Of a stretch of 64,000 nucleotides of DNA, positions 27,559 through 41,719 are shown one piece after another. The first letter of the stretch is position 1. Each line of letters opens with the position of its first letter. The DNA lies in assembly GCF_900100655.1 (NCBI RefSeq), contig NZ_FNCE01000003.1, forward strand, positions 152,501 to 216,500. The letters are read 5' to 3'. The notes beneath the pieces were generated by a model. The model was not told where the DNA came from, made no database searches, and saw only the letters and a program-made list of their open reading frames with translations. A program made the position numbers and the translations under genes. The stretch comes from Limimonas halophila (lineage in GTDB: Bacteria > Pseudomonadota > Alphaproteobacteria > Kiloniellales > Rhodovibrionaceae).

Positions 27559-27749
27559 GCAAACCTCCGCCGTGCTGCGGTGCGATCAAGTATTTCGCAT
27601 CGCAATATAGCACGGCGGCCGCCCGCGGCCTTTAACCACGGTCAAGCGGCATGGCGGCCCGCCGGGAGGCGGACAGCCCCGCGGCCCCGTGGCGTCCCAT
27701 CGACGCGCTCCCGGTCGCGGTGTAGGACGCGGCGGGGAGGTAACCTGTG

Positions 27750-28856
27750 ATGCGCATCCGGGAGATCCACGTCCACCAGCACGACCTGCCCGTCGCGGGC
27801 GGGCCGTTCCGCATGGCGCGCACCACGGTCGACGCCCTGGACACCACGGTCGTGCGCGTGGTCACGGACAGCGGCCATGTCGGCTGGGGCGAAACCTGTC
27901 CCGTGGGGCCCGTCTATCAGGCCCACCACGCGCTGGGCGCCCGCGCGGCGCTGGCGGAGGTGGCGCCGGGCCTGATCGGCCAGGACGCGCGCGCCATCGA
28001 GGTCGTGCGCAGCGAGATGGACGCGCGCCTGGACGGCCACGGCTACGCCAAGGCGGCCATCGACATCGCGCTCTGGGATCTGGCGGGCAAGCTCTACGGC
28101 CGGCGCATCTGCGACCTGCTCGGCGGCGGCCGGCGCGAGCGGGTGCCCGCCTACCATGCCACCAGCGTCGGCGAGCCGGAGCAGGTGGCGCGCGAGGCGC
28201 GCGAGAAGGTGGTCGCCGGCTTCCGGCGCCTGCAGATCAAGGTCGGCGGGCGCGCGGTGGAGCAGGACATCGCCACGCTGCGCGCGGTCTGGGCGGCCGT
28301 GGGCACCGACGCCCGCCTCGTCGCCGACGCCAATCGCGGCTGGACCGGGCGCGACGCCATGCTGCTGTCGAACGCCTGCGCCGACATCCCGCTGTCGCTG
28401 GAACAGCCCTGCAACAGCATGGACGAGATCGCCGCCGTGCGGCAGCACTTGCGCCACCCGGTCTACCTGGACGAAAGCGCGGAGGATCTGGCGACCATCC
28501 TGCGCGCGCTGAGCTGGAACGTCTGCGACGGGCTGGCGCTGAAGCTCACGCGCTCGGGCGGGCTGAGCGCCATGCGCGCCATCCGCGACGTCTGCGCCGC
28601 GCGCGGCATCCCGCAGACCAGCGACGATTCCTGGGGCGGGGACATCGTGGCCGCCGCGTGCGTCCACCTCGCCGCGACCGTGCCCGACGGCCTGCTGGAC
28701 GGCGTCTGGCTCGCCGCGCCCTACATCCGCGAGTCCTACGATCCGGCCGCGCCCATGACGATCCGCGACGGCCACGTGGCCGTGCCGGACGGGCCGGGCC
28801 TCGGCCTCACCCTCGACCCGGCGACGTTCGGCGAGCCCGTGGCGTCCTACGGGTGA
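27750..28856 (+). CDS. hpbD: Enolase-superfamily betaine epimerase, HpbD-like
   Basis: 368 residues, a mandelate racemase-type member. Proton-transfer lysines Lys164 (LQIKVGG) and Lys265 (GLALKLTR) face each other; metal ligands are Asp193 (VADAN), Glu218 (LEQP) and Asp241 (LDES). As I recall, HpbD (4R-hydroxyproline betaine 2-epimerase) binds the betaine by a cation-pi contact to Trp320 and by Asp292; both positions are conserved (GVW320, TSD292D). Overall the sequence is strikingly HpbD-like, including WGETCPVGP. The cis-3-hydroxyproline dehydratases are close relatives, so that alternative stands. GTG 27747 is an alternate start one codon upstream. No demethylase neighbours are seen. Confidence 0.72.
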   Translation: MRIREIHVHQHDLPVAGGPFRMARTTVDALDTTVVRVVTDSGHVGWGETCPVGPVYQAHHALGARAALAEVAPGLIGQDARAIEVVRSEMDARLDGHGYAKAAIDIALWDLAGKLYGRRICDLLGGGRRERVPAYHATSVGEPEQVAREAREKVVAGFRRLQIKVGGRAVEQDIATLRAVWAAVGTDARLVADANRGWTGRDAMLLSNACADIPLSLEQPCNSMDEIAAVRQHLRHPVYLDESAEDLATILRALSWNVCDGLALKLTRSGGLSAMRAIRDVCAARGIPQTSDDSWGGDIVAAACVHLAATVPDGLLDGVWLAAPYIRESYDPAAPMTIRDGHVAVPDGPGLGLTLDPATFGEPVASYG

Positions 28857-31071: not shown

Positions 31072-32640
31072 TCAGCTCACGATCCGCTGCTCCCGGGCCA
31101 TGTCGTAGGCCGCCTTGGGCCCGAGATAGAGCGATGGCAAGAGGACCAGTGAAACCGGGATCGCGGTGATCACGATGAACTGCTGCAGCGCGCTGACCTG
31201 GCCGGCGCCCATGTAGAGCAGGATCGCCGCCATCACGGCCATGGTGATGCCCCAGAACGCGCGCACCGACCGGGCGGGCTGGTCGTGGCCGGAGGCCACC
31301 ATGGAGATGGTGTAGCTCATGGAGTCGCCCGTCGTGGCGACGAAGATGGTGGTGAGGATCAGGATCAGCACCGCCATCACGAGGCCCAACGGCAGCGCCT
31401 GCGCCACGGTCAGCGTCGCCACGTCGAACTGGAAGTTGGTCAGCGCTTCCTTGAGGTCGATGACGCCCTGCATCTGGTAGTAGATGCCCGAGCCGCCGAG
31501 CAGCGTGAACCAGACCGTGGTGGCGACGGGCGCGGCGATGGCCACGGCCACGATCATCTCGCGGATCGTGCGCCCGCGCGAGATGCGCGCCACGAACAGC
31601 GCCATGAGCGGCCCGTAGCCCAGGAACCAGGCGAAGAAGAAGACCGTCCACCACTTCATCCACCAGTCGGGCGCGGTCTGCGCCGTCATCGTGGACGTCT
31701 CGAGGAAGCTGCTGACGTAGGTGCCGAAGCCCTGGAGGTAGCTGTTCAGGAGGAACAGCGTGGGGCCGAAAACGAAGATCACGGCGGCAATGAAAAGCGC
31801 CAGGAAGACGTTCATGCGCGAGAGGAACTGGATGCCGCGGTGGATGCCCGTCAGCGCCGAGGTCACGTAGATGCCGCCCAGCACGACCAGCACCGCGAGC
31901 TGCGAGCCGTAGCTGTCCTCGATGCCGAACAGCACCTCCATGCCGTAGGCCACCTGGGTCGCCAGAAAGCCGATGGGCCCGACCGTCCCGGCGACGACCG
32001 CGATCACGCAGACCGCGTCCACGATGCCGCCGAAGGCGCCGCGCATCACGCGCTCGCCGAACACGGGGAAGAGCAGCGTGCGCGGCTGCAGCGGCTTGCC
32101 GTGGGTGTAGTGCGCGTGCACGAGGACCAGCGAGGTCAGCGAGCCCAGGATCGCCCACGCCAGGAAGCCCCAGTGCGTGAAGGACTGCGCCAGGGCGGCC
32201 TGCACCGCCGCCGCCGTTCCCGTCTCGGCGCCGAAGGCCGGGGGCGATTGTGCGACAAAGTGGTACACCGGCTCGCCCGCGGCGAAGAAGACGCCGCCGC
32301 CCGCCAGCAGCGTGCACAGGATGATGGACACCCACTTGAAGGTGCTCATCTCCGGCTGGTCGAGGTTGCCCATCTTGGCGCTCGCCGCCGGGGAGATCGC
32401 CACCCCGATGGCGATGAAGAAGGTGAGCAGCAGGATCGCCTGGAAGAAGGAGCCGAGATACTTCGCCGTCCAGGTGAAGCCCCCGCTGACCAGCTCGGAG
32501 AGCAGGTTCACGTCGTAGGCCGACAAGGCGAGGAAGGCGATCACAAAGCCGCCACTGATGCCCAGCACCCAAGGGTCGCCAAGACCGGCGTTCATGCCGA
32601 TCCGCTCCTCCGACCCGCGTTCAGCCACATTCTCCGCCAT
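31072..32640 (-). CDS. BCCT-family betaine/carnitine/choline transporter
   Basis: 522 residues, about twelve helices. N-terminal GDPWVLGISGGFVIAFL and the family signature FVARISRGRTIREM are intact. The tryptophan-rich signature of choline/betaine members before it (in BetP, Trp-x-x-x-Trp) reads FFFAWFLGYGP here (about residues 335-345), so two of the usual tryptophans are Phe and Tyr; the cation box is still aromatic but may suit another ligand. It drives uptake with Na+ or H+. It is expressed from its own AT-rich promoter region and ends at a terminator. A LysR gene lies upstream on the same strand. Confidence 0.9.
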   Translation of the reverse strand: MAENVAERGSEERIGMNAGLGDPWVLGISGGFVIAFLALSAYDVNLLSELVSGGFTWTAKYLGSFFQAILLLTFFIAIGVAISPAASAKMGNLDQPEMSTFKWVSIILCTLLAGGGVFFAAGEPVYHFVAQSPPAFGAETGTAAAVQAALAQSFTHWGFLAWAILGSLTSLVLVHAHYTHGKPLQPRTLLFPVFGERVMRGAFGGIVDAVCVIAVVAGTVGPIGFLATQVAYGMEVLFGIEDSYGSQLAVLVVLGGIYVTSALTGIHRGIQFLSRMNVFLALFIAAVIFVFGPTLFLLNSYLQGFGTYVSSFLETSTMTAQTAPDWWMKWWTVFFFAWFLGYGPLMALFVARISRGRTIREMIVAVAIAAPVATTVWFTLLGGSGIYYQMQGVIDLKEALTNFQFDVATLTVAQALPLGLVMAVLILILTTIFVATTGDSMSYTISMVASGHDQPARSVRAFWGITMAVMAAILLYMGAGQVSALQQFIVITAIPVSLVLLPSLYLGPKAAYDMAREQRIVS

Positions 32641-32873
32641 GATGCCGTCCCTGTTCCGTCCGATGTGGTGTGGAGCCGCGCGGCCGGCTGCTGTTCGCCG
32701 GCAGGGCCAATGCGCATGACATCCGCGTGGGGACACCATGTCGCATTATTGTCACGATTAAAAGAAGAGGCGATCTTATAAACAAATCAAAAAAATTAAA
32801 GAAACGCTTAGTTCAGCTTATAAATTGGAAAGCAAAAATGGGCGGATCGACAAGGTCTCCGGGCGGATGCGTC
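32641..32873. promoter_or_regulatory. AT-rich promoter region of the BCCT gene
   Basis: 233 bp between lysR stop and BCCT start. The 32745-32840 part is much richer in A/T than anything nearby, with several A-tracts. It probably holds the BCCT promoter; I see no clear operator or gene. Confidence 0.4.
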
Positions 32874-33800
32874 TCAGGGGGCTCCGGACCCGCCCAACCG
32901 TGCGATCACCATGTCGCGCATGCTTTCCGCAGCTGGCGACAGCGAGCGCCCCTGGCGCGTGATCAGGCATATGTCGCGTGCCAATTCAGGTTCGACCAAG
33001 GGCCGGAAGATCAGGTCGTTTGGGTGATGGTCCGGCATGGCCAGGCGCGGCAACACGCTGATGCCCAGGCCGGCGACCAGCATGCCCTCCAGCGTGGCGA
33101 TGTTGGACACCTCCACCTCCGGCTGGCGCAGGTTGTCGGGCAGGCCGTCCACGGACTGGACCAGCGGCCGGATGCCGGTGTCGTGGCCCAGGCCGAGGAA
33201 GGTGTGGCCGGCCAGCTCGCGCCAGCGCACCGGCCCGGTGGCTTCGGCCAGGGGATGATCGGCGCGGCAGACGAGCCCGAAGGGATCGCGCATGACGGCC
33301 TCGAAGGCGAGGTCGGCGTCCGGCTCCCACATCGACGCCAGGCCGAAGTCGACCTCCTTGCGCGACACGCGGCGTTGCACGCCGCTGGCGTTGGCGTCGT
33401 GCAGGTGCACCGAGATGCCGGGGTAGGTGTCGCGGAACGCCGCCAGGATGTCCGGCATGGCCTTGAGCGCGATCGAGGGCAGCGTGGCGACGCTCACCCG
33501 CCCGCGCCGGCGCTGGGCGACCTCGCGCACATCGGCGATGGCGGATTCGAAATCGTCCAGCAGGCGTTCGGCCGTGGGCAGGAACTCGGTGCCGTTGTCG
33601 GTGAGCATCACGCGCCGGGTAGTGCGGTCGAACAGCCGCACCCCCAGCTCCTCCTCGAACTGATTGATCTGGATGGTCAGCGCCGGCTGCGACAGCGCCA
33701 GCCGCCGCGCCGCGCGCGTGAAGCTGCCCTCGCGCGCGACGGCGACGAAGGCCTGGAGGTGCTTGAGCGTGACATTCATTGCCGGACCGGCACCCTTCAT
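32874..33800 (-). CDS. LysR family transcriptional regulator
   Basis: 308 residues. HTH: LKHLQAFVAVAREGSFTRAARRLALSQPALTIQINQFEEELGVRLFDR. The effector domain has RVSVATLPSIALKAMPDILAAFRDTYPGI, in the CysB/CbbR-like subgroup. It is transcribed away from the aldehyde dehydrogenase operon and towards the BCCT gene, so it probably controls both in response to the pathway substrate. ATG 33800 has GGGGTGG upstream; ATG 33779 is a weaker alternative. Confidence 0.92.
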   Translation of the reverse strand: MKGAGPAMNVTLKHLQAFVAVAREGSFTRAARRLALSQPALTIQINQFEEELGVRLFDRTTRRVMLTDNGTEFLPTAERLLDDFESAIADVREVAQRRRGRVSVATLPSIALKAMPDILAAFRDTYPGISVHLHDANASGVQRRVSRKEVDFGLASMWEPDADLAFEAVMRDPFGLVCRADHPLAEATGPVRWRELAGHTFLGLGHDTGIRPLVQSVDGLPDNLRQPEVEVSNIATLEGMLVAGLGISVLPRLAMPDHHPNDLIFRPLVEPELARDICLITRQGRSLSPAAESMRDMVIARLGGSGAP

Positions 33801-34019
33801 AAGCCACCCCTATCAAACCATGAGACATTTTTAATTAAATGGCCGGACCATTTTCTCTAGCTTATAGGCAGATCGCCGCGGACGCGACCCCGATGTGCCG
33901 CGCGCGAGCCTGCCCATACGGCCCCCGTCCGGATCGTGGACACGTCGATCGGGACCGCACACGCTCGCGCTGCCGCGCACACAGGGGCGCGCTCACAACC
34001 AGCTTCGGGAGGAGCCGCT
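33801..34019. promoter_or_regulatory. Divergent promoter between lysR and the aldehyde dehydrogenase operon
   Basis: 219 bp. An AT-rich palindromic core ATTTTTAATTAAAT is at 33827-33840, flanked by CCAT (33818-33821) and ATGG (33839-33842), making a plausible LysR operator. The ribosome binding site GGGAGGAG is at 34008-34015. An in-frame ATG at 33936 exists, but the added 28 residues show no homology. Confidence 0.45.
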
Positions 34020-35462
34020 TTGACGACCGACGCCCACCCCAACTACATCGCCGGCCGCTGGGCGCCCGCGGGTGATGCGGTGACGGAGAACCACAACCCG
34101 TCCGACCTGGACGACCTCGTGGGCACCTACGCCCAGGCCAGCACGGCCCAGGTCGAGGAAGCCATTGCCGCCGCGAAGCAGGCGTTCCCGACCTGGACCT
34201 CCCTGCTGCCCGAGCAGCGCCAGGCGCCGCTGGAGCGCATCGGCGACGAGCTGATCGCCCGCAAGGACGAGCTCGGCCGCCTGCTCTCCCGCGAGGAGGG
34301 CAAGCCGCTCGCCGAGGGTGTGGGCGAGATCGCGCGCGCCGGGCAGTTCTTCAAGTTCTACGCCGGGGAGACGCTGCGCCTGCACGGCGACTTCACGCAG
34401 TCCGTTCGCCCCGGCGTCGAGGTCGAGGTGCGGCGTGAGTCCCTCGGCGTCGTCGGCATCATCACGCCCTGGAACTTCCCGGCCGCCATCCCGGCGTGGA
34501 AGATCGCCCCCGCGCTGGCCTACGGGAACACCGTGGTGTTCAAGCCGGCCGACCTCGTGCCCGGCACGGCGTGGGCGCTGGCCGAGATCATCTCGCGCGC
34601 GGGCCTGCCGGACGGCGCCTTCAACCTCGTCATGGGCCGGGGCAGCGTGGTCGGCGAGACCATCCTGACCTCGCGCGACGTCGCCGCCGTCACCTTCACC
34701 GGCTCGGCCCAGACGGGCGCGCACGTTGCCCGCCGCTGCGCCGAGACGATGAAGAAGGTGCAGCTGGAGATGGGCGGCAAGAACCCGCTCGTGGTGCTGG
34801 ACGACGCCGACGTAGAGGTCGCCGCCTCGGCCGCGCTCAACGGCTACTCGGGCACGGGGCAGAAGTGCACGGCGTCCTCGCGCCTCGTCGTCACCGAGGG
34901 CATCCACGACCGCTTCGTCGAGGCGCTGACGGAGAAGCTGAACGGCTACACCGTCGGCCACGCGCTCGACGAGAACACCAAGATGGGTCCGGTCGTGGAC
35001 GAGAGCCAGCTGCAGACGGACCTGGACTACATCGAGCTGGGCAAGCAGGAGGGCGCCGAGCTGCACACCGGCGGCCAGCTGCTCAACCGCGAGACGCGCG
35101 GCCACTACCTCTCGCCGGCGCTCTTCACGGGCACGCGCAACGACATGCGCATCAACCGCGAGGAGATCTTCGGCCCGGTCTGCGCCGTCATCAAGGTGAA
35201 GGACTACGAGGAGGCGCTGGCGACGGCCAACGACACCGACTACGGCCTCACCAGCTCCATCTGCACGACCTCGCTGAAGCACGCCAGCCACTTCAAGGCG
35301 AACAGCAAGTCTGGGATCGTGACGGTGAACCTGCCCACGGGCGGCATGGACTACCACGTGCCCTTCGGCGGCATGAAGGCGTCCAGCTACGGCCCGCGCG
35401 AGCAGGGGCAGTACGCCCGCGAGTTCTACACCGTCACCAAGACCACCTACACCAAGCCCTGA
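34020..35462 (+). CDS. Aldehyde dehydrogenase, 2-oxoglutarate semialdehyde dehydrogenase type
   Basis: 480 residues from a TTG start placed just after GGGAGGAG; this gives the family's usual N-terminus NYIAGRWAPAG. Catalytic Cys283 (GTGQKCTASSR) and Glu250 (LEMGGKNP) are present with normal spacing, along with PWNFPAAIPAWK and FTGSAQTG for NAD(P) binding. Its closest remembered type is the semialdehyde dehydrogenase ending hydroxyproline and sugar-acid degradation, forming 2-oxoglutarate. Another aldehyde, for example from a betaine, is possible. First gene of an operon of four; the dipeptidase-like gene begins 9 bp after it. Confidence 0.88.
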   Translation: MTTDAHPNYIAGRWAPAGDAVTENHNPSDLDDLVGTYAQASTAQVEEAIAAAKQAFPTWTSLLPEQRQAPLERIGDELIARKDELGRLLSREEGKPLAEGVGEIARAGQFFKFYAGETLRLHGDFTQSVRPGVEVEVRRESLGVVGIITPWNFPAAIPAWKIAPALAYGNTVVFKPADLVPGTAWALAEIISRAGLPDGAFNLVMGRGSVVGETILTSRDVAAVTFTGSAQTGAHVARRCAETMKKVQLEMGGKNPLVVLDDADVEVAASAALNGYSGTGQKCTASSRLVVTEGIHDRFVEALTEKLNGYTVGHALDENTKMGPVVDESQLQTDLDYIELGKQEGAELHTGGQLLNRETRGHYLSPALFTGTRNDMRINREEIFGPVCAVIKVKDYEEALATANDTDYGLTSSICTTSLKHASHFKANSKSGIVTVNLPTGGMDYHVPFGGMKASSYGPREQGQYAREFYTVTKTTYTKP

Positions 35463-35471
35463 GGCAGCGGC

Positions 35472-36500
35472 ATGGCAGCCACGCAGGCGAGCGGCTCCCA
35501 GACGACCGGGCACCAGCTCAGCGGCCACGTCATCGACGCGCTCCAGTACTCGAACTGGACCCGCCGCCACTTTGAGGACTGGCGGGCCGGCGGCATGACG
35601 GCCGTGGGCGTGACGATCGCGTACCACGAACGCGCGCGCGACACGCTCACCCGGCTGGGCGAATGGAACTGGCGCCTGCGTGAGAACGCGGACCTGATCC
35701 GCCCCATCCGGCGCGGCGGCGACCTGGACGCCGCGCGGGACGAGGGGCGGATCGGCGTCCTGCTGGGCGCGCAGAACTGCTCGCCCATCGACGACGACGT
35801 CGGCCTCGTTCAGGTGATGAACGACGCCGGCCTCAAGGTGATGCAGCTCACCTACAACAACCTCAGCCTCATCGGCGCCGGCTGCGCCGAGCTGGACGAT
35901 CCGGGCATCTCGCGCTTCGGCCGCGAAGTCATCTCGGAGATGAACCGCGTGGGCATGGTCATCGACATGTCCCACTCGGCCGAGCGCACCACCCTGGAAG
36001 CCATCGAGCTGTCCAGCCGCCCCGTGGCGGTGACACACGCCAACCCGCGCTTTTTCCACGACACCCCGCGCAACAAGAGCACCGACGTCCTGCGCGCGCT
36101 GGGCGAAAGCGGCGGGATGTTCGGCTTTTCGCTGTATCCGCCGCACCTCGCGGACGGCGCGCAGACGACGCTGGACACCTTCACCGCGATGGTCGCGCGC
36201 ACTGCCGAGATCGCCGGGACCGGCAACATCGGCATCGGCTCCGACCTGTGCCAGGGCTGGGACGGGCGCACGATCGACTACATGCGCAACGGCCGCTGGC
36301 GCCTGGTGCCCCAGGCCGAGCGCGAGCGCTTCGCCGCCACGCCGTGGCCCGATCAGCCGGCGTGGTTCCAGCGCTCGGCGGACATGCCGAAGCTCGCGGA
36401 CGCGCTGCGCGAGCGCGGCTTCTCCGCGGCCGACGTGGATGGGATCATGGGCGGCAACTGGGCGCGCTACCTGCGCGACGCGCTGGAGCCCACGGGGTAA
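35472..36500 (+). CDS. M19 (renal dipeptidase-like) protein lacking canonical zinc ligands
   Basis: 342 residues of the M19 TIM-barrel family. His168 (DMSHSAERT), His189 (VTHANPR) and Asp258 (GIGSDLCQGWDG) match M19 zinc positions. But the N-terminal HxD ligand motif (usually DGHND) reads GHVIDALQYSNW, and the bridging Glu motif (usually GIEG) reads LLGAQN. A binuclear zinc centre is therefore unlikely as usual. M19-like proteins are also found, as I recall, beside glycine-betaine/dimethylglycine genes in Pseudomonas, suggesting a role in quaternary-amine breakdown. The conserved context with an aldehyde dehydrogenase supports a non-peptidase job. Confidence 0.8.
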   Translation: MAATQASGSQTTGHQLSGHVIDALQYSNWTRRHFEDWRAGGMTAVGVTIAYHERARDTLTRLGEWNWRLRENADLIRPIRRGGDLDAARDEGRIGVLLGAQNCSPIDDDVGLVQVMNDAGLKVMQLTYNNLSLIGAGCAELDDPGISRFGREVISEMNRVGMVIDMSHSAERTTLEAIELSSRPVAVTHANPRFFHDTPRNKSTDVLRALGESGGMFGFSLYPPHLADGAQTTLDTFTAMVARTAEIAGTGNIGIGSDLCQGWDGRTIDYMRNGRWRLVPQAERERFAATPWPDQPAWFQRSADMPKLADALRERGFSAADVDGIMGGNWARYLRDALEPTG

Positions 36501-36595
36501 AAACGACCGGCGGCGGCCCTGGCCGCGCCGACGCCACGCCCGATGTCGAAAGACGACGGAGGCGGTTCACGAAACCAGCGACGGGGAGGTCCGCG

Positions 36596-38374
36596 ATGCC
36601 CACACATGCGCCGGTCCGCGGTTACGAGCAGCGCGTTCGCGACGTGCCGCGCGATCCCCTGCGGCCGCCCGCCGAAGTCATGCGCCTGTCGCGCATGGGC
36701 GCGATGCACGGCACCCGCATCAGCTTCATGCGCACGCTCACCCGCCGCATGGCGCGCGAGGGCTGGCGCATCCAGTGCCAGCGCTTCGACATCGGGGCCG
36801 ACCAGACGGGCGAGGCCGTCTACACCGTCGACACGCCGGACGGCCGCTACAGCTTCGTCGTCTTCGCCCACGACATCCCCGAGGAAGACCGCACCGACCG
36901 TGTGATCGCCGAGCGCTGGGACTACACCTTCGCGCTCACCGACGGCGAACCGGACGAAGACCATCTGGACGACCTGCGCGCCAACGTGCCGCTTCAGGAA
37001 GCTGGGCGCATGCGCCCCGAGGACATCGTCCTCTCGCGCGGCAACAAGAGCACGCGCCTGTTCGCCCACGTCGTGGACGCCCTGGCCGCCGGGCAGCAGC
37101 CGGACCCGGGGAAGGTGGACGAGGTCGGCTACCTCATGCGCACCACGGCCGTCTACGGCAACGGCAAGTTCGGCCTCGCCGACTATGAGCAGGTGCGCCG
37201 GCACACGGCCTTCCGCCAGCCCTTCAGCGCGCAGATGTTCACCGTCTATCTGGCGCGGCTGTTCTCGCTGGATCTGGTCGAGCACGTCGCCCGGCTGCGC
37301 GACCCGGACAACGCGGTCGGGCTGGACCCGCGCCTGCGCCGCGCCTTCGGCGTGGGCAACGCCACGGGCCTGGGCATGGCGCCCTTCCTGGTGAACCACC
37401 CCAAGATCATCCACGGCTGGGCCTGGGCGCGCGAGACCGCGCTGGCGCGCGTCAAGGCCGTGCCCTCTGCGGAGGCGTGGCGGCTGGACCGCTTCCAGCA
37501 ACTCTTCGAGCGCGCGATCACGCATGCCGATCAGTGGCAGACCGCCGACGAACGCCAGATGGCGGACATCCACACGCTGCGCGCCGAGCTGCGCACGCTG
37601 CACGCCGAGCTGTTCCCGGCCGAGGGCGAGAGCATCCTGGCCGCCGACCATCCCTGGCGGCGGCTGGCGCGGACGCTGGCGCAGCGCTTCTCCCTGGAAA
37701 CCCAGGAGATGGTGCACAGCCTGATGATCGAGCCCTACGGCGACCTCGTCGACGAGCTGGAGGACCGGCTCACCTGCGACGACGAGCTGTGGCTCGAACC
37801 GGCGATGCGGCTGTTCACGCTCAAGGATCTGCTGGAGCGGCACTACCGCTGGGCCATCGAGACCGACTACACGGCGGAGGAAAACCAGCACTACTTCTGG
37901 TACCGCGCCGAGGCGAAGGAGGAGCCGCGCATCGGCGAGCGCTGCTGCGAGTCCGGCGCCGAGCGCGAGATGATGATCGGCGTTGGGCGCGAGGCGGCGC
38001 GCCTCCACGCGGCGCTGGCAAAGCTGGACAACGAGTCGCTGCACGAGGCGGTGGCGGCCTTCCTGATGCGGCGGCCGGACCTGCGCGCGATCACCCGCCG
38101 GGTACAAACGATGGCGCACGCGCCCTACGGCGAGATCCGCGACAACCTGCTGGGCGCCGACATCCGCCCCATCGACCTGCTGCGCTTCAAGCTGTCGGTG
38201 TTCGGCGCGGTGCGCTTCGACCCCAAGTCGGATCGCTGGATCCGCATCACGATGTTCAAGGGCGCGCCCCTGCCGGAGGAGCTGACGGGCTGCGACGCCT
38301 GCGGGGCGCCGCCGCACTGCCTGACCTGTCCACCGGATGACTGGGCCTTCCCGGTCGTGCCGGAGGCGCTGTGA
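36596..38374 (+). CDS. Conserved 592-residue protein of unknown function with C-terminal CxxC pair
   Basis: 592 residues, soluble, unrecognised. It is mostly helical by composition, with charged, His- and Arg-rich stretches. A C-terminal cysteine set, Cys566-x2-Cys569-x5-Cys575-x2-Cys578 (CDACGAPPHCLTC), could bind zinc or an iron-sulfur cluster. Another pair is at ERCCESGAERE. It has no signal peptide. ATG 36596 follows GGGGAGG; the longer upstream frame runs through the dipeptidase gene. Its stop overlaps the next start by 4 bp (ATGA). Operon partners suggest a large catabolic or redox enzyme, but no fold is identified. Confidence 0.8.
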   Translation: MPTHAPVRGYEQRVRDVPRDPLRPPAEVMRLSRMGAMHGTRISFMRTLTRRMAREGWRIQCQRFDIGADQTGEAVYTVDTPDGRYSFVVFAHDIPEEDRTDRVIAERWDYTFALTDGEPDEDHLDDLRANVPLQEAGRMRPEDIVLSRGNKSTRLFAHVVDALAAGQQPDPGKVDEVGYLMRTTAVYGNGKFGLADYEQVRRHTAFRQPFSAQMFTVYLARLFSLDLVEHVARLRDPDNAVGLDPRLRRAFGVGNATGLGMAPFLVNHPKIIHGWAWARETALARVKAVPSAEAWRLDRFQQLFERAITHADQWQTADERQMADIHTLRAELRTLHAELFPAEGESILAADHPWRRLARTLAQRFSLETQEMVHSLMIEPYGDLVDELEDRLTCDDELWLEPAMRLFTLKDLLERHYRWAIETDYTAEENQHYFWYRAEAKEEPRIGERCCESGAEREMMIGVGREAARLHAALAKLDNESLHEAVAAFLMRRPDLRAITRRVQTMAHAPYGEIRDNLLGADIRPIDLLRFKLSVFGAVRFDPKSDRWIRITMFKGAPLPEELTGCDACGAPPHCLTCPPDDWAFPVVPEAL

Positions 38375-39096
38375 TGCTGCTGTCGATCAACGAACTGCGC
38401 GGCCGCTACGCGCGCGCCTTCGAGGGCATGGGCTTTCCCGCTGGGCTGGCGCCGGACGCGGCCCGCATCGCCGCCACGCTGGACATCCTGGGCGACGACG
38501 GCCTGAGCCGCGTGCTCGACCGGCTGGACCGCCTGGACGGCGTCAAGCTGCCCGTGCCGGATCTTGCCGTGGACGGCAGCTCGGCGCGCCTGGACGGCCA
38601 CGGCGGCTCGCTGCTTGCGGTCGGCGCGGACGTGCTGGATGTGCTGGACGTTCTCACCCAGCAGCACGGCGAGGCGCGCATCGAGGTGCACGGCTGCCGC
38701 GACGTGGACTTCGTCACCGGGCTCGGCGGGCTGGCCGCCGCGCGCGGGATCGAGGGGGCGCTGCTCGCCAGCCTGGAAGACCGCGAGCGCCTGGTGCGCG
38801 TGGCCCAGCGCCGCGCCGAGGTGCAGGAGGGGCCGCCGGGCACCTTCGCGGGCGTGCCGGCGGACGGGCTGCTGGTGCTGGGCGGGCAGTTCGTGGACAC
38901 GCTCGACGCCAGCGCCTGCACGACCACGCTCGGCTTTGGAGCTTTCGACGAACGCCACGACGACGCCCTGGAAAACGGCGTTCGCGTCGACGACGCGGAT
39001 TGGAAGCGGATCTACGCCCTCGGCGGCCGGCTGCTCGTGCCCGAGATGGGCGACGCCGCCGCCAACGCGGGCGTCGGCGGTGGCACGCCGTTTTAA
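38371..39096 (+). CDS. DUF3726-like protein
   Basis: 241 residues. The start SINELRGRYARAFEGMGFPAGLAPDAARIAATLD resembles the N-terminal pattern I remember for DUF3726; the rest has alternating beta and helix with GGSLLAVGADVLDVL. No catalytic motif is recognised. It overlaps the 592-residue gene by 4 bp, indicating a tight functional partnership. The gene ends 3 bp from the converging photolyase gene. The family call is tentative. Confidence 0.6.
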   Translation: MMLLSINELRGRYARAFEGMGFPAGLAPDAARIAATLDILGDDGLSRVLDRLDRLDGVKLPVPDLAVDGSSARLDGHGGSLLAVGADVLDVLDVLTQQHGEARIEVHGCRDVDFVTGLGGLAAARGIEGALLASLEDRERLVRVAQRRAEVQEGPPGTFAGVPADGLLVLGGQFVDTLDASACTTTLGFGAFDERHDDALENGVRVDDADWKRIYALGGRLLVPEMGDAAANAGVGGGTPF

Positions 39097-39099
39097 ATC

Positions 39100-41520
39100 C
39101 TATTCGATCGGTTCCGTCGCGGCGACGGTGCGGGGTGCTCCGCGCGCCGCGATGTCGGGCTCGCTGGCAAAGACGCGCCCGGCCATCGCCATGCCGGAGA
39201 GCAGGGCGTCGTCGATGCCGCCGCCCAGGCACCATTCCCCGCACGCGCCCACGCCGGCGTCGCCGTCGAAGAGGCACCCCGCGTCCAGCGGCGTTTCCGC
39301 GCGGGCGTAGCGCCAGCGGTGGCCCGTGACCGCGACCGGCTCGGGTGCCTCGACGCGCTGGCGAAAGGCTGCGACCAGCTCGCCTGCCGCCGCGTCCGCA
39401 TCGTCGTCGAGGTGCTCGGCGGACCAGGCCGGATCGCCGTGCAGCACCCAGACCTCTTCGTTCATCTCCCGGCCCGGCTTGGCGCTGTTGCGGATCGCCA
39501 TGCGGGCCGGCCCATTCCCACGCACGACGTCGGGCACCCCGGAAACGGGTGCGGCGAAGCGCGCCATCGCGGTAATGCAGGGCGCGTAGCGCACGCCCCG
39601 CGCGGCCTCGGCCAGCGCCGGACAGGGCGCCAGCAGCTCGGCCGCCTGCGGCGCGGGCACCGCGACGACCACGCGGTCGAACGGGCCGAATACGCCCGCA
39701 TCGGTCGTGAGCGACCAGGCGCCGGCGTCGCGGGTCAAGCGGTCGACGCGCACGCCGCTGCGCACGTCGAGGTCGGCGGCCAGATGCTCGGCCAGGGCGC
39801 GGCTGTGCGGCACCGGGACGTAGCGCCCGTCGTCGCCGGTCAATTCCGGGTCCCAGGGCAGGATGACGCCCTGGTCCAGCCAGCTTTCCACAAAGGGCGC
39901 CAGCCGGGGATCGTCCGCGCGGAACCAGGGAGCGCCGTGGTCGGCGTGAACGTCCGCCCACAGGCGCTTGGCCGCCGTGCGCCCGCCCACGCGCCGGCCC
40001 TTGTCGAGCACCGTGACCGCAACACCCTGGTCGGCCAGCGTGCGCGCGCACATCAAGCCGGCGGGCCCGGCGCCGATGACGGCCACGCGCGGCATCTCGC
40101 CCGCGGGGCGTCGGGTTTGAAGCGCGGCGAACCGTGCGGTGTCCAGGCGCTCGGCGTGGACCTCGGTGCTGCGCGGGCGCACGCGGCCGAAGATGGGCTT
40201 TTCCGGGTCGAAGGGGCGGTCGAAGGCGCCCAGGCACCAGAACAGCCCCGCGTAGGAATTCGGGTCGCCGCCGTCGAGGGCGTAGCGGTTGTTCAGGTCC
40301 ACCAGCATCCGCGCGGCTACGTCCGGCCCTTCCGTCCAGGGCAGCAGGGCCTTGCCCCAGGTCATGCGCACGTTGTTGTGCAGGTAGCCGCGCCGCAGAT
40401 ACCCGGCTTGCGCCGCGTTCCAGAAGGCGTCGTCGGTGCGTCCGCGCGCCAGGGTTTCCCAGACGTAGAGCGCCGGACGCGGGTCCAGGGCGCAGCGGTC
40501 GAGGCTCTCGCGCGCCCAGTCGGGAAGCACGTCGACGGTGTCGTGGTCCGGCGCAAAGTGGGCGAAGCTCCACGCCATCTCCCGCCAGATCAGCAGCTCC
40601 TCCAGGAACTTCTCCGGGCCCTTGCCGCCCTGCGCCGCCGCCTCGCGCGCGAGTTGGGTGGCCGCGATCATGCCGTGGCGCAGATAGGGCGAGAGGTGGC
40701 TGACCGCGCCGTCCTGCAGCGCGTCGTTGCGGCGCGCGGCGTAGCCCGCCAGGCGGTGGTCGCGGAAGGCGGCCCAGCGCGTCTGCGCCGCCGCTTCGCC
40801 GCCGGGGTCGTCGGGCACGGGCGGTACGCTGTGGTCGATCTCGCAGGCCGCCGTCAGCTCGCCCAGATCCCAGGCGTCCAGATCGGTGGGCGTGCGGGGC
40901 AGCGTGCCGGCGTCGGGCGCGACGCGTGGCGCCACCGGCGGGAACTCCGCGTGCAGGCGGTCCGCCCGCTGATCCTTGGTCGCCGACCGGAATTTGTACG
41001 CCCGGTCGAAGGCGCGGCCGACCTGGATCATGGGCACGACGCAACTCGCGTCCACGGCCAGAACTGGCGTCTCCCGCTCCGCTGTCGCCGCCAGGAGCGC
41101 CGAGCGGTCTTCGCGGTAGGACCTTGTCGGCTGGTCGTCGCAGACCACGGCCGCGGCATCGCGGGCGAGGCGGGGCGTGGCCTCCTCGCGCGCGCCCGGC
41201 CGGTGGACGTAGGCTGCCGTGGCGATGCCGCGTTCGCGGATCGTCGCCAGGGCCTCGCGCGCCCCCTCCAGCACGAAGCGGTGGTGGCGGTCGCTGGCGA
41301 AGGGGTAGCGCTCGCTCAGTTCGAACACCGCCAGCACCGGCAGGCCCAGCGCGTTGCCCAGCGCCACTGCCGCGTCGAGCGCCTGGTTTTCGTGGCCGCG
41401 CAGGTTGCCGCTCAGGCTGTACAGGACGTAGGCGCCCCGCGGACCGGGCTCGCCGGCCCGCAGAGCCCGCGTGCGCGAAGCCAGGCGCGGGGGCAGGCGG
41501 TCGATCGGCGCGTCAGGCAT
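39100..41520 (-). CDS. Class II CPD photolyase fused to FAD/NAD(P)-dependent oxidoreductase
   Basis: 806 residues in two parts. Residues 1 to about 475 are a class II photolyase: an N-terminal Rossmann-like region (YVLYSLSGNLRGHENQAL), then FLEELLIWREMAWSFAHF and WNAAQAGYLRRGYLHNNVRMTWGKALLPWT, which line the FAD and lesion site. From about 480 a second protein begins with VAVIGAGPAGLMCARTL, a dinucleotide-binding loop, and DKGRRVGGRTAAKR as in RenL-like amine oxidases, ending GGGIDDALLSGMAMAGRVFASEPDI. The single uninterrupted frame covers both. The first part repairs UV dimers with light; the second might feed it reduced FAD, but that is inference. Confidence 0.9.
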   Translation of the reverse strand: MPDAPIDRLPPRLASRTRALRAGEPGPRGAYVLYSLSGNLRGHENQALDAAVALGNALGLPVLAVFELSERYPFASDRHHRFVLEGAREALATIRERGIATAAYVHRPGAREEATPRLARDAAAVVCDDQPTRSYREDRSALLAATAERETPVLAVDASCVVPMIQVGRAFDRAYKFRSATKDQRADRLHAEFPPVAPRVAPDAGTLPRTPTDLDAWDLGELTAACEIDHSVPPVPDDPGGEAAAQTRWAAFRDHRLAGYAARRNDALQDGAVSHLSPYLRHGMIAATQLAREAAAQGGKGPEKFLEELLIWREMAWSFAHFAPDHDTVDVLPDWARESLDRCALDPRPALYVWETLARGRTDDAFWNAAQAGYLRRGYLHNNVRMTWGKALLPWTEGPDVAARMLVDLNNRYALDGGDPNSYAGLFWCLGAFDRPFDPEKPIFGRVRPRSTEVHAERLDTARFAALQTRRPAGEMPRVAVIGAGPAGLMCARTLADQGVAVTVLDKGRRVGGRTAAKRLWADVHADHGAPWFRADDPRLAPFVESWLDQGVILPWDPELTGDDGRYVPVPHSRALAEHLAADLDVRSGVRVDRLTRDAGAWSLTTDAGVFGPFDRVVVAVPAPQAAELLAPCPALAEAARGVRYAPCITAMARFAAPVSGVPDVVRGNGPARMAIRNSAKPGREMNEEVWVLHGDPAWSAEHLDDDADAAAGELVAAFRQRVEAPEPVAVTGHRWRYARAETPLDAGCLFDGDAGVGACGEWCLGGGIDDALLSGMAMAGRVFASEPDIAARGAPRTVAATEPIE

Positions 41521-41719
41521 CCGACTCGCCCGCGCTGCCGTCCCCGGCGGCACTCGGCGGTGTGGGGGCCGGCGGTGGCACGTCGAGGGGATCGGCGCGG
41601 CCATCGCGGTCCGTGGCGTAGGCGCGGCGCCAGCCCTCAACGGCCACGGCGGCGAGTCCAGCGACCGCCACCCCGGCCGCGGCGTGGACGGCGGCGTTCG
41701 CGGCGAGCCGGATCAACAT
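41513..41719 (-). CDS. Small membrane protein, 68 residues
   Basis: Starts at ATG 41719 with a GGGGGAAA ribosome site. One hydrophobic helix (LAANAAVHAAAGVAVAGLAAVAVEG), then a polar, proline-rich tail. No known family. Its start and the previous stop share TGATG, and its stop overlaps the photolyase start region by 8 bp, so it sits in the photolyase operon. Confidence 0.55.
   Translation of the reverse strand: MLIRLAANAAVHAAAGVAVAGLAAVAVEGWRRAYATDRDGRADPLDVPPPAPTPPSAAGDGSAGESDA

Follow-up and report, generated by a model that had tools for sequence, protein, structure and literature searches.

Among the described systems closest to the locus reported here, two act on N-methylated pyridine carboxylates. 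The trigonelline pathway tgnABCDEF of Acinetobacter baylyi opens the ring of such a compound; PMC8269262, which cites it, maintains that homarine, or N-methylpicolinate, cannot be a substrate of TgnA/B. The catabolism of homarine involves N-methylglutamate dehydrogenase (Mgd), according to the accessible text of PMC13390433, which cites Ferrer-Gonzalez et al. 2026 (Nat Microbiol 11:1531) and which also places the AraC-type regulator gene tmaR next to mgdABCD in Ruegeria pomeroyi; within 10 h the same bacterium lowers homarine to no more than 2% (PMC12817926). Here we analyze a four-gene operon (positions 34,020 to 39,096) in a 64,000-nucleotide stretch of the genome of Limimonas halophila (assembly GCF_900100655.1, contig NZ_FNCE01000003.1, positions 152,501 to 216,500), referred to below as the window, which encodes an aldehyde dehydrogenase, a homologue of M19 peptidases, a 592-residue protein of no known family and a DUF3726 protein. 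The published homarine operon, reportedly named homABCDER, is said to consist of five genes plus a regulator, to occur in SAR11 and Rhodobacterales and to have N-methylglutamate as a product. We consider it likely that the window locus is a copy of the homarine catabolic operon or of a related one that acts on a closely similar N-methylated pyridine carboxylate.

A constant triad and its optional partners

The four genes are real and lie where a sequence-only reading of the window had placed them, all on the plus strand, and Pfam confirms the aldehyde dehydrogenase, M19 and DUF3726 assignments together with those of a LysR-type regulator and a BCCT-family carrier alongside. They encode the aldehyde dehydrogenase (34020..35462; Aldedh, 532 bits), the M19 homologue, with a rebuilt active site (35472..36500; Peptidase_M19, PF01244, 243 bits), the 592-residue core protein (36596..38374; nothing above cut-off in Pfam, NCBIfam or PHROG) and the DUF3726 protein (38371..39096 from a GTG start, or 38374-39096 from an ATG; PF12525, 27.9 bits for a cut-off of 22.1). 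Gaps of 9, 95 and -4 bp had been proposed and are correct, except that the overlap reads GTGA / TGATG and not ATGA.

Failure of these genes to co-occur elsewhere had been named beforehand as a ground for rejecting the module, and they do co-occur. Within 4.5 kb of the gene for the 592-residue protein, at 81 loci to which some genomes contribute two or three, we found DUF3726 (74 loci), M19 (71), aldehyde dehydrogenase (30), LysR (25), Ldh_2 (25) and BCCT (17) genes; at the 65 loci with more than 6 kb on both sides the counts were 61, 57, 25, 20, 21 and 15, respectively. The neighbour profiles were built from these same loci, so they are biased towards finding members there; Pfam's own DUF3726 model, which is independent of them, matches all 54 aligned relatives at E 0.01 or better. 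Because DUF3726 and M19 genes lie near the 592-residue protein at most of the 81 loci, the module is a constant triad of these three, to which the aldehyde dehydrogenase, carrier, regulator and Ldh_2 enzyme have been added in many lineages. The initial proposal of four genes as one set therefore holds for the triad, while the aldehyde dehydrogenase, at 25 of the 65 well-flanked loci, is only a frequent partner.

One gene order, with LysR divergent from aldehyde dehydrogenase, M19, BCCT, 592-residue protein and DUF3726, recurs in several families of Alpha- and Gammaproteobacteria. Two genomes of 1.2-1.4 Mb (loci L094 and L095) have, in this order, genes for an OpuAC-type ATP-binding cassette (ABC) carrier, aldehyde dehydrogenase, M19, 592-residue protein and DUF3726, and their operons adjoin a gene scoring above the cut-off for dimethylsulfoniopropionate demethylase. 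Within the order, 28 of 61 genomes encode a relative of the 592-residue protein, as do 53 of 385 in the class and 29 of 398 in the phylum (overlapping sets), and some genomes have two or three copies. Relatives also turn up in 168 of 72,556 plasmid records, chiefly from Sinorhizobium (64) and Phaeobacter (58). Alphaproteobacterial genomes of 1.2-1.4 Mb are among those that carry one (G089, G265, G354, G316), some of them single-contig. A scan of genome contigs gave one relative (L002), and ten pattern matches in viral contigs included no true relative. On a quick, midpoint-rooted tree of the 81 proteins, linkage to aldehyde dehydrogenase is clustered, yet requires 14 changes; the window protein branches deep among the alphaproteobacterial rows, after gammaproteobacterial rows, which carry the aldehyde dehydrogenase.

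Some triads keep different company. At L087, L099 and L102, a variant of the triad is flanked by class-III aminotransferase, GMC oxidoreductase, Usp-domain and MFS-like genes, assigned by Pfam at L087 and by matching neighbour clusters at the other two. At L135 the triad stands beside genes for an MTTB-type methyltransferase, a homocysteine S-methyltransferase, a phosphoenolpyruvate-mutase-like protein and a DMGDH-like protein, and the neighbour clusters of L132 match those of L135; such neighbours suggest another methylated substrate. On pSymB of Sinorhizobium meliloti (L145 / L144), a distant relative of the 592-residue protein, about 33% identical, is found in the order IclR, 592-relative, 242-residue protein, dipeptidase, ABC carrier, aminotransferase and two RidA genes. 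The position of the 242-residue protein fits DUF3726, but it has no Pfam match and was not counted. A literature search through locus tags guessed around this copy returned nothing relevant.

The three triad proteins

The best solved relative of the M19 homologue is 2i5g, an ‘amidohydrolase’ that we take to be PA5396 of Pseudomonas aeruginosa, for which a literature search gave no relevant paper. With the metal ligands assumed to be those of renal dipeptidase, an alignment of 58 rows bears out the earlier claim that the HxD motif and the bridging Glu are missing. The HxD position is replaced by D22-x-L24-Q25-Y26 (in 57, 56, 55 and 54 of 58 rows) and the bridging Glu by Q101, within a GxQN motif, in 57 of 58; the two other metal-site histidines, H168 and H189, and the Asp of the GSD motif, D258, are invariant. 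Thus the binuclear site of renal dipeptidase is not intact, and the window protein resembles the PA5396 / 2i5g branch of the family: where the two are aligned, 2i5g has the same D-x-L and GxQN replacements and likewise keeps both histidines and the aspartate. In total, 65 columns, among them D22, Q101, H168, H189 and D258, hold one residue in at least 95% of the rows. The site is conserved and rebuilt, and calling the protein ‘metal-less’, as had been done, is unjustified from sequence alone. Because its residues are so strongly conserved over the 58 rows, this constrained site suggests a new reaction and not decay.

The DUF3726 protein leads to the Ldh_2 family (PF02615), which includes sulfolactate dehydrogenase and DpkA. 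Aligned with hhalign, a 54-row DUF3726 profile and a 25-row profile of operon-encoded Ldh_2 proteins matched with a probability of 88% (E 3e-6, 122 columns), while the control, DUF3726 against the 592-residue family, gave 0.4%. In the gammaproteobacterial loci L121, L123 and L125, the DUF3726 and Ldh_2 Pfam models match the same N-terminal residues, with Ldh_2 scores of 41.4, 35.9 and 38.5 bits for a cut-off of 38.8, so that L121 passes, over the N-terminal 135 positions only; the window protein shows no Ldh_2 match. Two results speak against the kinship: a model of the operon's own Ldh, at best weak support, found only L121 among the 54 DUF3726 rows (11 bits, in N- and C-terminal stretches), and a PDB search with the L123 protein gave only a malate/lactate dehydrogenase at E 0.13. 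Compared with Ldh_2 enzymes, DUF3726 proteins match about the first 135 positions, are much shorter, have no match to the middle part and have the SHG motif replaced. From these alignments we read them as cut-down, diverged Ldh_2 relatives that lack the middle part, and for that reason the DUF3726 protein is probably not a dehydrogenase. An AlphaFold model from a two-row alignment had a mean predicted local distance difference test score (pLDDT) of 32.1, too poor for a fold search, and a literature search on DUF3726 found no paper. Most DUF3726 relatives conserve a GAGAGLxDND tail at the C-terminus, which the window protein keeps only partly (NAGVGGGTPF, 39060-39093).

The 592-residue protein matches no known enzyme family in profile searches and stands, as the sequence-only reading had it, as a genuine unknown at the centre of the module; identity with a known enzyme of ordinary metabolism was the other ground for rejection named beforehand, and it does not apply. 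Searches against solved structures and with a 57-row profile yielded no match better than E 0.033, and those obtained, to V-ATPase subunit C and coiled coils, we attribute to chance similarity of a helical stretch; Pfam searches with 57 members of the family gave two weak single-member matches and no common family. Its AlphaFold model, also from a two-row alignment, had a mean pLDDT of 39.4, again too poor for a fold search. A CxxC-x5-CxxC cluster had been singled out in this protein; among the other 80 rows no C-terminal tail shows it, two of these rows (L080 and L117) stopping short of the true C-terminus. We therefore rule it out as a catalytic or metal centre, and on this comparison the cluster is a local feature of the window copy. 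What is new here is this lack of conservation, the kinship of DUF3726 with Ldh_2, and the conserved, rebuilt M19 site.

Mgd-type complexes and a putative route for homarine

In several relatives the operon is found next to genes for a four-subunit, sarcosine-oxidase-like complex. On plasmids of Ruegeria sp. TM1040, Phaeobacter inhibens DSM 17395 and Aliiroseovarius crassostreae it adjoins soxB/D/A/G-type genes and a gene for an AraC/GlxA-type regulator; in Roseateles sp. XES5 it adjoins the same type of complex, OpuAC-type ABC carrier genes, an Ldh gene and purU. We placed the alpha subunits in a tree with 7 operon-linked, 5 mgsABC/gmaS-linked and 3 glyA-linked rows, 2 from the window genome and 7 unlabelled. 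All 7 operon-linked subunits nest among the mgs-linked rows, and the 3 glyA-linked rows split off by a 99/98 branch; the operon-linked complexes are, by this phylogeny, of the Mgd type and apart from sarcosine oxidase (Sox). L161 pairs with the mgs-linked L170, and L139-L141 and L068/L071/L072 lie elsewhere in the mgs group, and since the operon-linked subunits sit in several places of that group, their association with the operon seems to have arisen more than once. A complex and an AraC/GlxA-type regulator beside an operon of this type recall the mgdABCD-tmaR and gmaS-mgsABC methylamine cluster of R. pomeroyi, as far as the accessible text of PMC13390433 describes it; unlike that cluster, the 81 loci contain no mgsA or mgsC match and two weak GmaS-like ones (30-32%).

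The operon's other enzymes and its carrier point the same way. The aldehyde dehydrogenase belongs to its superfamily by its Aldedh score and by the GQKC and LEMGGK motifs in its sequence. Its best scores, in the window and at L095 alike, are to C5 semialdehyde enzymes and below their cut-offs (nearest in NCBIfam are 2,5-dioxovalerate and alpha-ketoglutaric semialdehyde dehydrogenases, at 513 of 750 and 511 of 770 bits for the window protein). Carriers at the loci of the 592-residue protein are of BCCT or OpuAC types. The window BCCT carrier, a probable uptake protein (31072..32739, minus strand; 478 bits), is 66, 72 and 74% identical (tblastn) to the in-operon BCCTs of L121, L123 and L125. BCCT betaine carriers classically have a Trp-rich box in transmembrane segment 8 (TM8). 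The window protein departs from it with WTVFFFAWFLGYGP, and the altered form recurs in 13 of the 15 further carriers aligned from these loci (those over 480 residues), so that the alteration noticed earlier is one shared by related loci; the BCCTs of L070 and L090 carry a different, WTTFYWAWWIAFSP-type box. For the optional Ldh_2 enzyme, that of TM1040 has as its best solved relative delta1-piperideine-2-carboxylate reductase (E 4.8e-53), followed by L-sulfolactate dehydrogenase (2.2e-38), which suggests a protein close to an enzyme acting on reduced picolinate-type rings. Of 59 genomes searched in the order, 26 have the 592-residue protein and 33 lack it; Ldh_2 (at E 1e-60 or better) occurs in 18 and 11 of them, respectively, and lies within 5 kb of the 592-residue protein in 11 genomes. 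At L125 the gene after the operon codes for a RidA-type protein.

Since the hints from Ldh_2, aldehyde dehydrogenase, carrier and RidA all fit, we favour an N-methylated pyridine carboxylate as substrate. The earlier view of a transported, regulated catabolic module for a solute with quaternary nitrogen is thereby supported, with the likely solute being such a compound in place of the choline, carnitine or stachydrine first suggested. We infer the substrate in this genome, the order of steps and the role of each triad member to be as follows. BCCT would import the betaine, which, or an intermediate of which, the LysR protein would sense; the triad would dearomatise and open the ring; a DpkA-like Ldh_2, where present, would reduce the C=N or C=C bond of a tetrahydropicolinate-type or imino-acid intermediate; the aldehyde dehydrogenase would oxidise a C5 semialdehyde to N-methylglutamate; and Mgd would demethylate this to glutamate and methylene-tetrahydrofolate. 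The tgn pathway differs in using the TgnA/TgnB oxygenase: by Pfam, none of the four window genes encodes an oxygenase, the rest of the genome not having been searched for TgnA/B. We tentatively entertain the possibility that the triad is an undescribed multi-subunit enzyme for the oxygenase-free dearomatising and opening of N-methylated pyridine carboxylates, one that joins a rebuilt amidohydrolase and a remnant of Ldh_2 to a protein of new fold, with paralogous triads tuned to several substrates; such tuning would explain the two or three copies per genome.

How close is the published pathway? To the extent that its reference entry and one citing sentence reveal (Ferrer-Gonzalez et al. 2026; PMC13390433), and not gene by gene, the homarine operon shares with this module, as it stands in some named relatives, Mgd as a downstream partner and a home in marine Alphaproteobacteria. 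A literature search for homarine degradation or catabolism genes returned only PMC13390433, papers since 2024 being judged by titles and abstract openings. The operon had at first been called undescribed; since the homarine pathway has been in print since 2026, it is, on what that entry conveys, probably described.

Several observations weigh against a homarine operon in L. halophila. Just 6 of the 81 loci hold an Mgd/Sox-type alpha subunit, at only 41-43% identity in two cases, as do 3 of the 7 regions retrieved with the 592-residue protein from named organisms. The Mgd link is seen for the complexes of relatives, whereas the window genome has its Ldh_2 relative (51% identical to that of TM1040) on another contig, not in the operon but beside a sarcosine-oxidase-like complex. 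The region around that complex also codes for a Rieske oxygenase and a LysR regulator as well as OpuAC and DMGDH-like proteins, and the complex's alpha subunit falls near the midpoint root, on the Sox side and outside the Mgd group. A GmaS-like gene lies elsewhere in the genome. In the tree, then, the window genome is without a clear Mgd-group complex such as the homarine operon has for a partner; it is here that the homarine reading is weakest, and because the alpha subunit falls outside the Mgd group, the Mgd step stays putative for this organism. Substrates may also differ between copies, since L135 has MTTB, homocysteine methyltransferase and DMGDH-like neighbours and some genomes have two or three copies. 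The models of the 592-residue and DUF3726 proteins are poor (mean pLDDT 39 and 32). Lastly, homarine supported poorer growth of R. pomeroyi than trigonelline did, according to an older paper (PMC8269262).

Alternative roles and the wider locus

Other substrates have to be considered. A protein of the enolase superfamily is encoded 5 kb upstream (27747-28856, plus strand), adjoining an acyl-CoA synthetase gene; its closest match is cis-3-hydroxy-L-proline dehydratase (304 bits, cut-off 500). Together with the 2,5-dioxovalerate-type aldehyde dehydrogenase it could form one pathway to 2-oxoglutarate, and the operon would then serve the catabolism of proline betaine or hydroxyproline betaine, a reading that we regard as improbable. 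It is favoured by the best matches of the LysR protein (proline-binding PsrA in NCBIfam, 213 bits, below the cut-off of 540) and of the aldehyde dehydrogenase (2,5-dioxovalerate dehydrogenase), as well as by the Rieske oxygenase and OpuAC protein elsewhere in the genome; but the acyl-CoA synthetase, a DCC1-like protein, BCCT and LysR separate the enolase from the operon, such an enolase is found near only one other locus of the 592-residue protein (L083), and no proline-betaine route is known to need such a triad. There is also little to recommend another quaternary amine (glycine betaine, carnitine or choline), as the sequence-only reading had proposed. BCCT or OpuAC carriers would fit it, as would the MTTB and DMGDH-like genes beside L135, and PA5396 presumably lies in a glycine-betaine/dimethylglycine region; however, the operon-linked complexes appear to be of the Mgd type, the optional enzyme is nearest to piperideine-2-carboxylate reductase, and the BCCT box is unlike that of classical betaine carriers. 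Less credible still is a carrier or assembly unit without ring opening, in which M19 and DUF3726 would be dead enzymes scaffolding the 592-residue protein, since the loss of HxD and the bridging Glu and the absent match to the Ldh_2 middle would suit it but the conservation of the M19 homologue is unlike decay.

The remaining features of the locus frame the operon. The LysR-type regulator (32874..33800, minus strand; HTH_1 and LysR_substrate) is divergent from it and occupies a matching position in many relatives' loci. The 33801..34019 gap between it and the aldehyde dehydrogenase is, by position, a divergent promoter region, in which we looked for a sigma-70-like site and found none. The aldehyde dehydrogenase starts at a TTG preceded by GGGAGGAG; a start further upstream, for example GTG 33936, is also possible. 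At the operon end, a terminator-like stem followed by TTTTAAATCC (39075..39090, plus strand) is a weak call, since the window has 5 such sites for 1.9 expected. Convergent with the operon is a single 846-residue frame on the minus strand (39100-41640), which reads as an unusual fusion: what resembles a class II-type photolyase (296 bits to phr2, under its cut-off) precedes a flavin adenine dinucleotide (FAD) amine-oxidase-like half.

Homarine is an abundant marine osmolyte and nitrogen compound. The family of the 592-residue protein, which has neither a name nor a recognised domain, is found in close to half of the order's sampled genomes and also in complete alphaproteobacterial genomes of 1.2-1.4 Mb, the size of those of SAR11-type ocean bacteria. 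If the operon does serve homarine, the copy in the window is a divergent addition to those known and makes plain which parts are constant. Culturable Roseobacters carry the full set on a plasmid.

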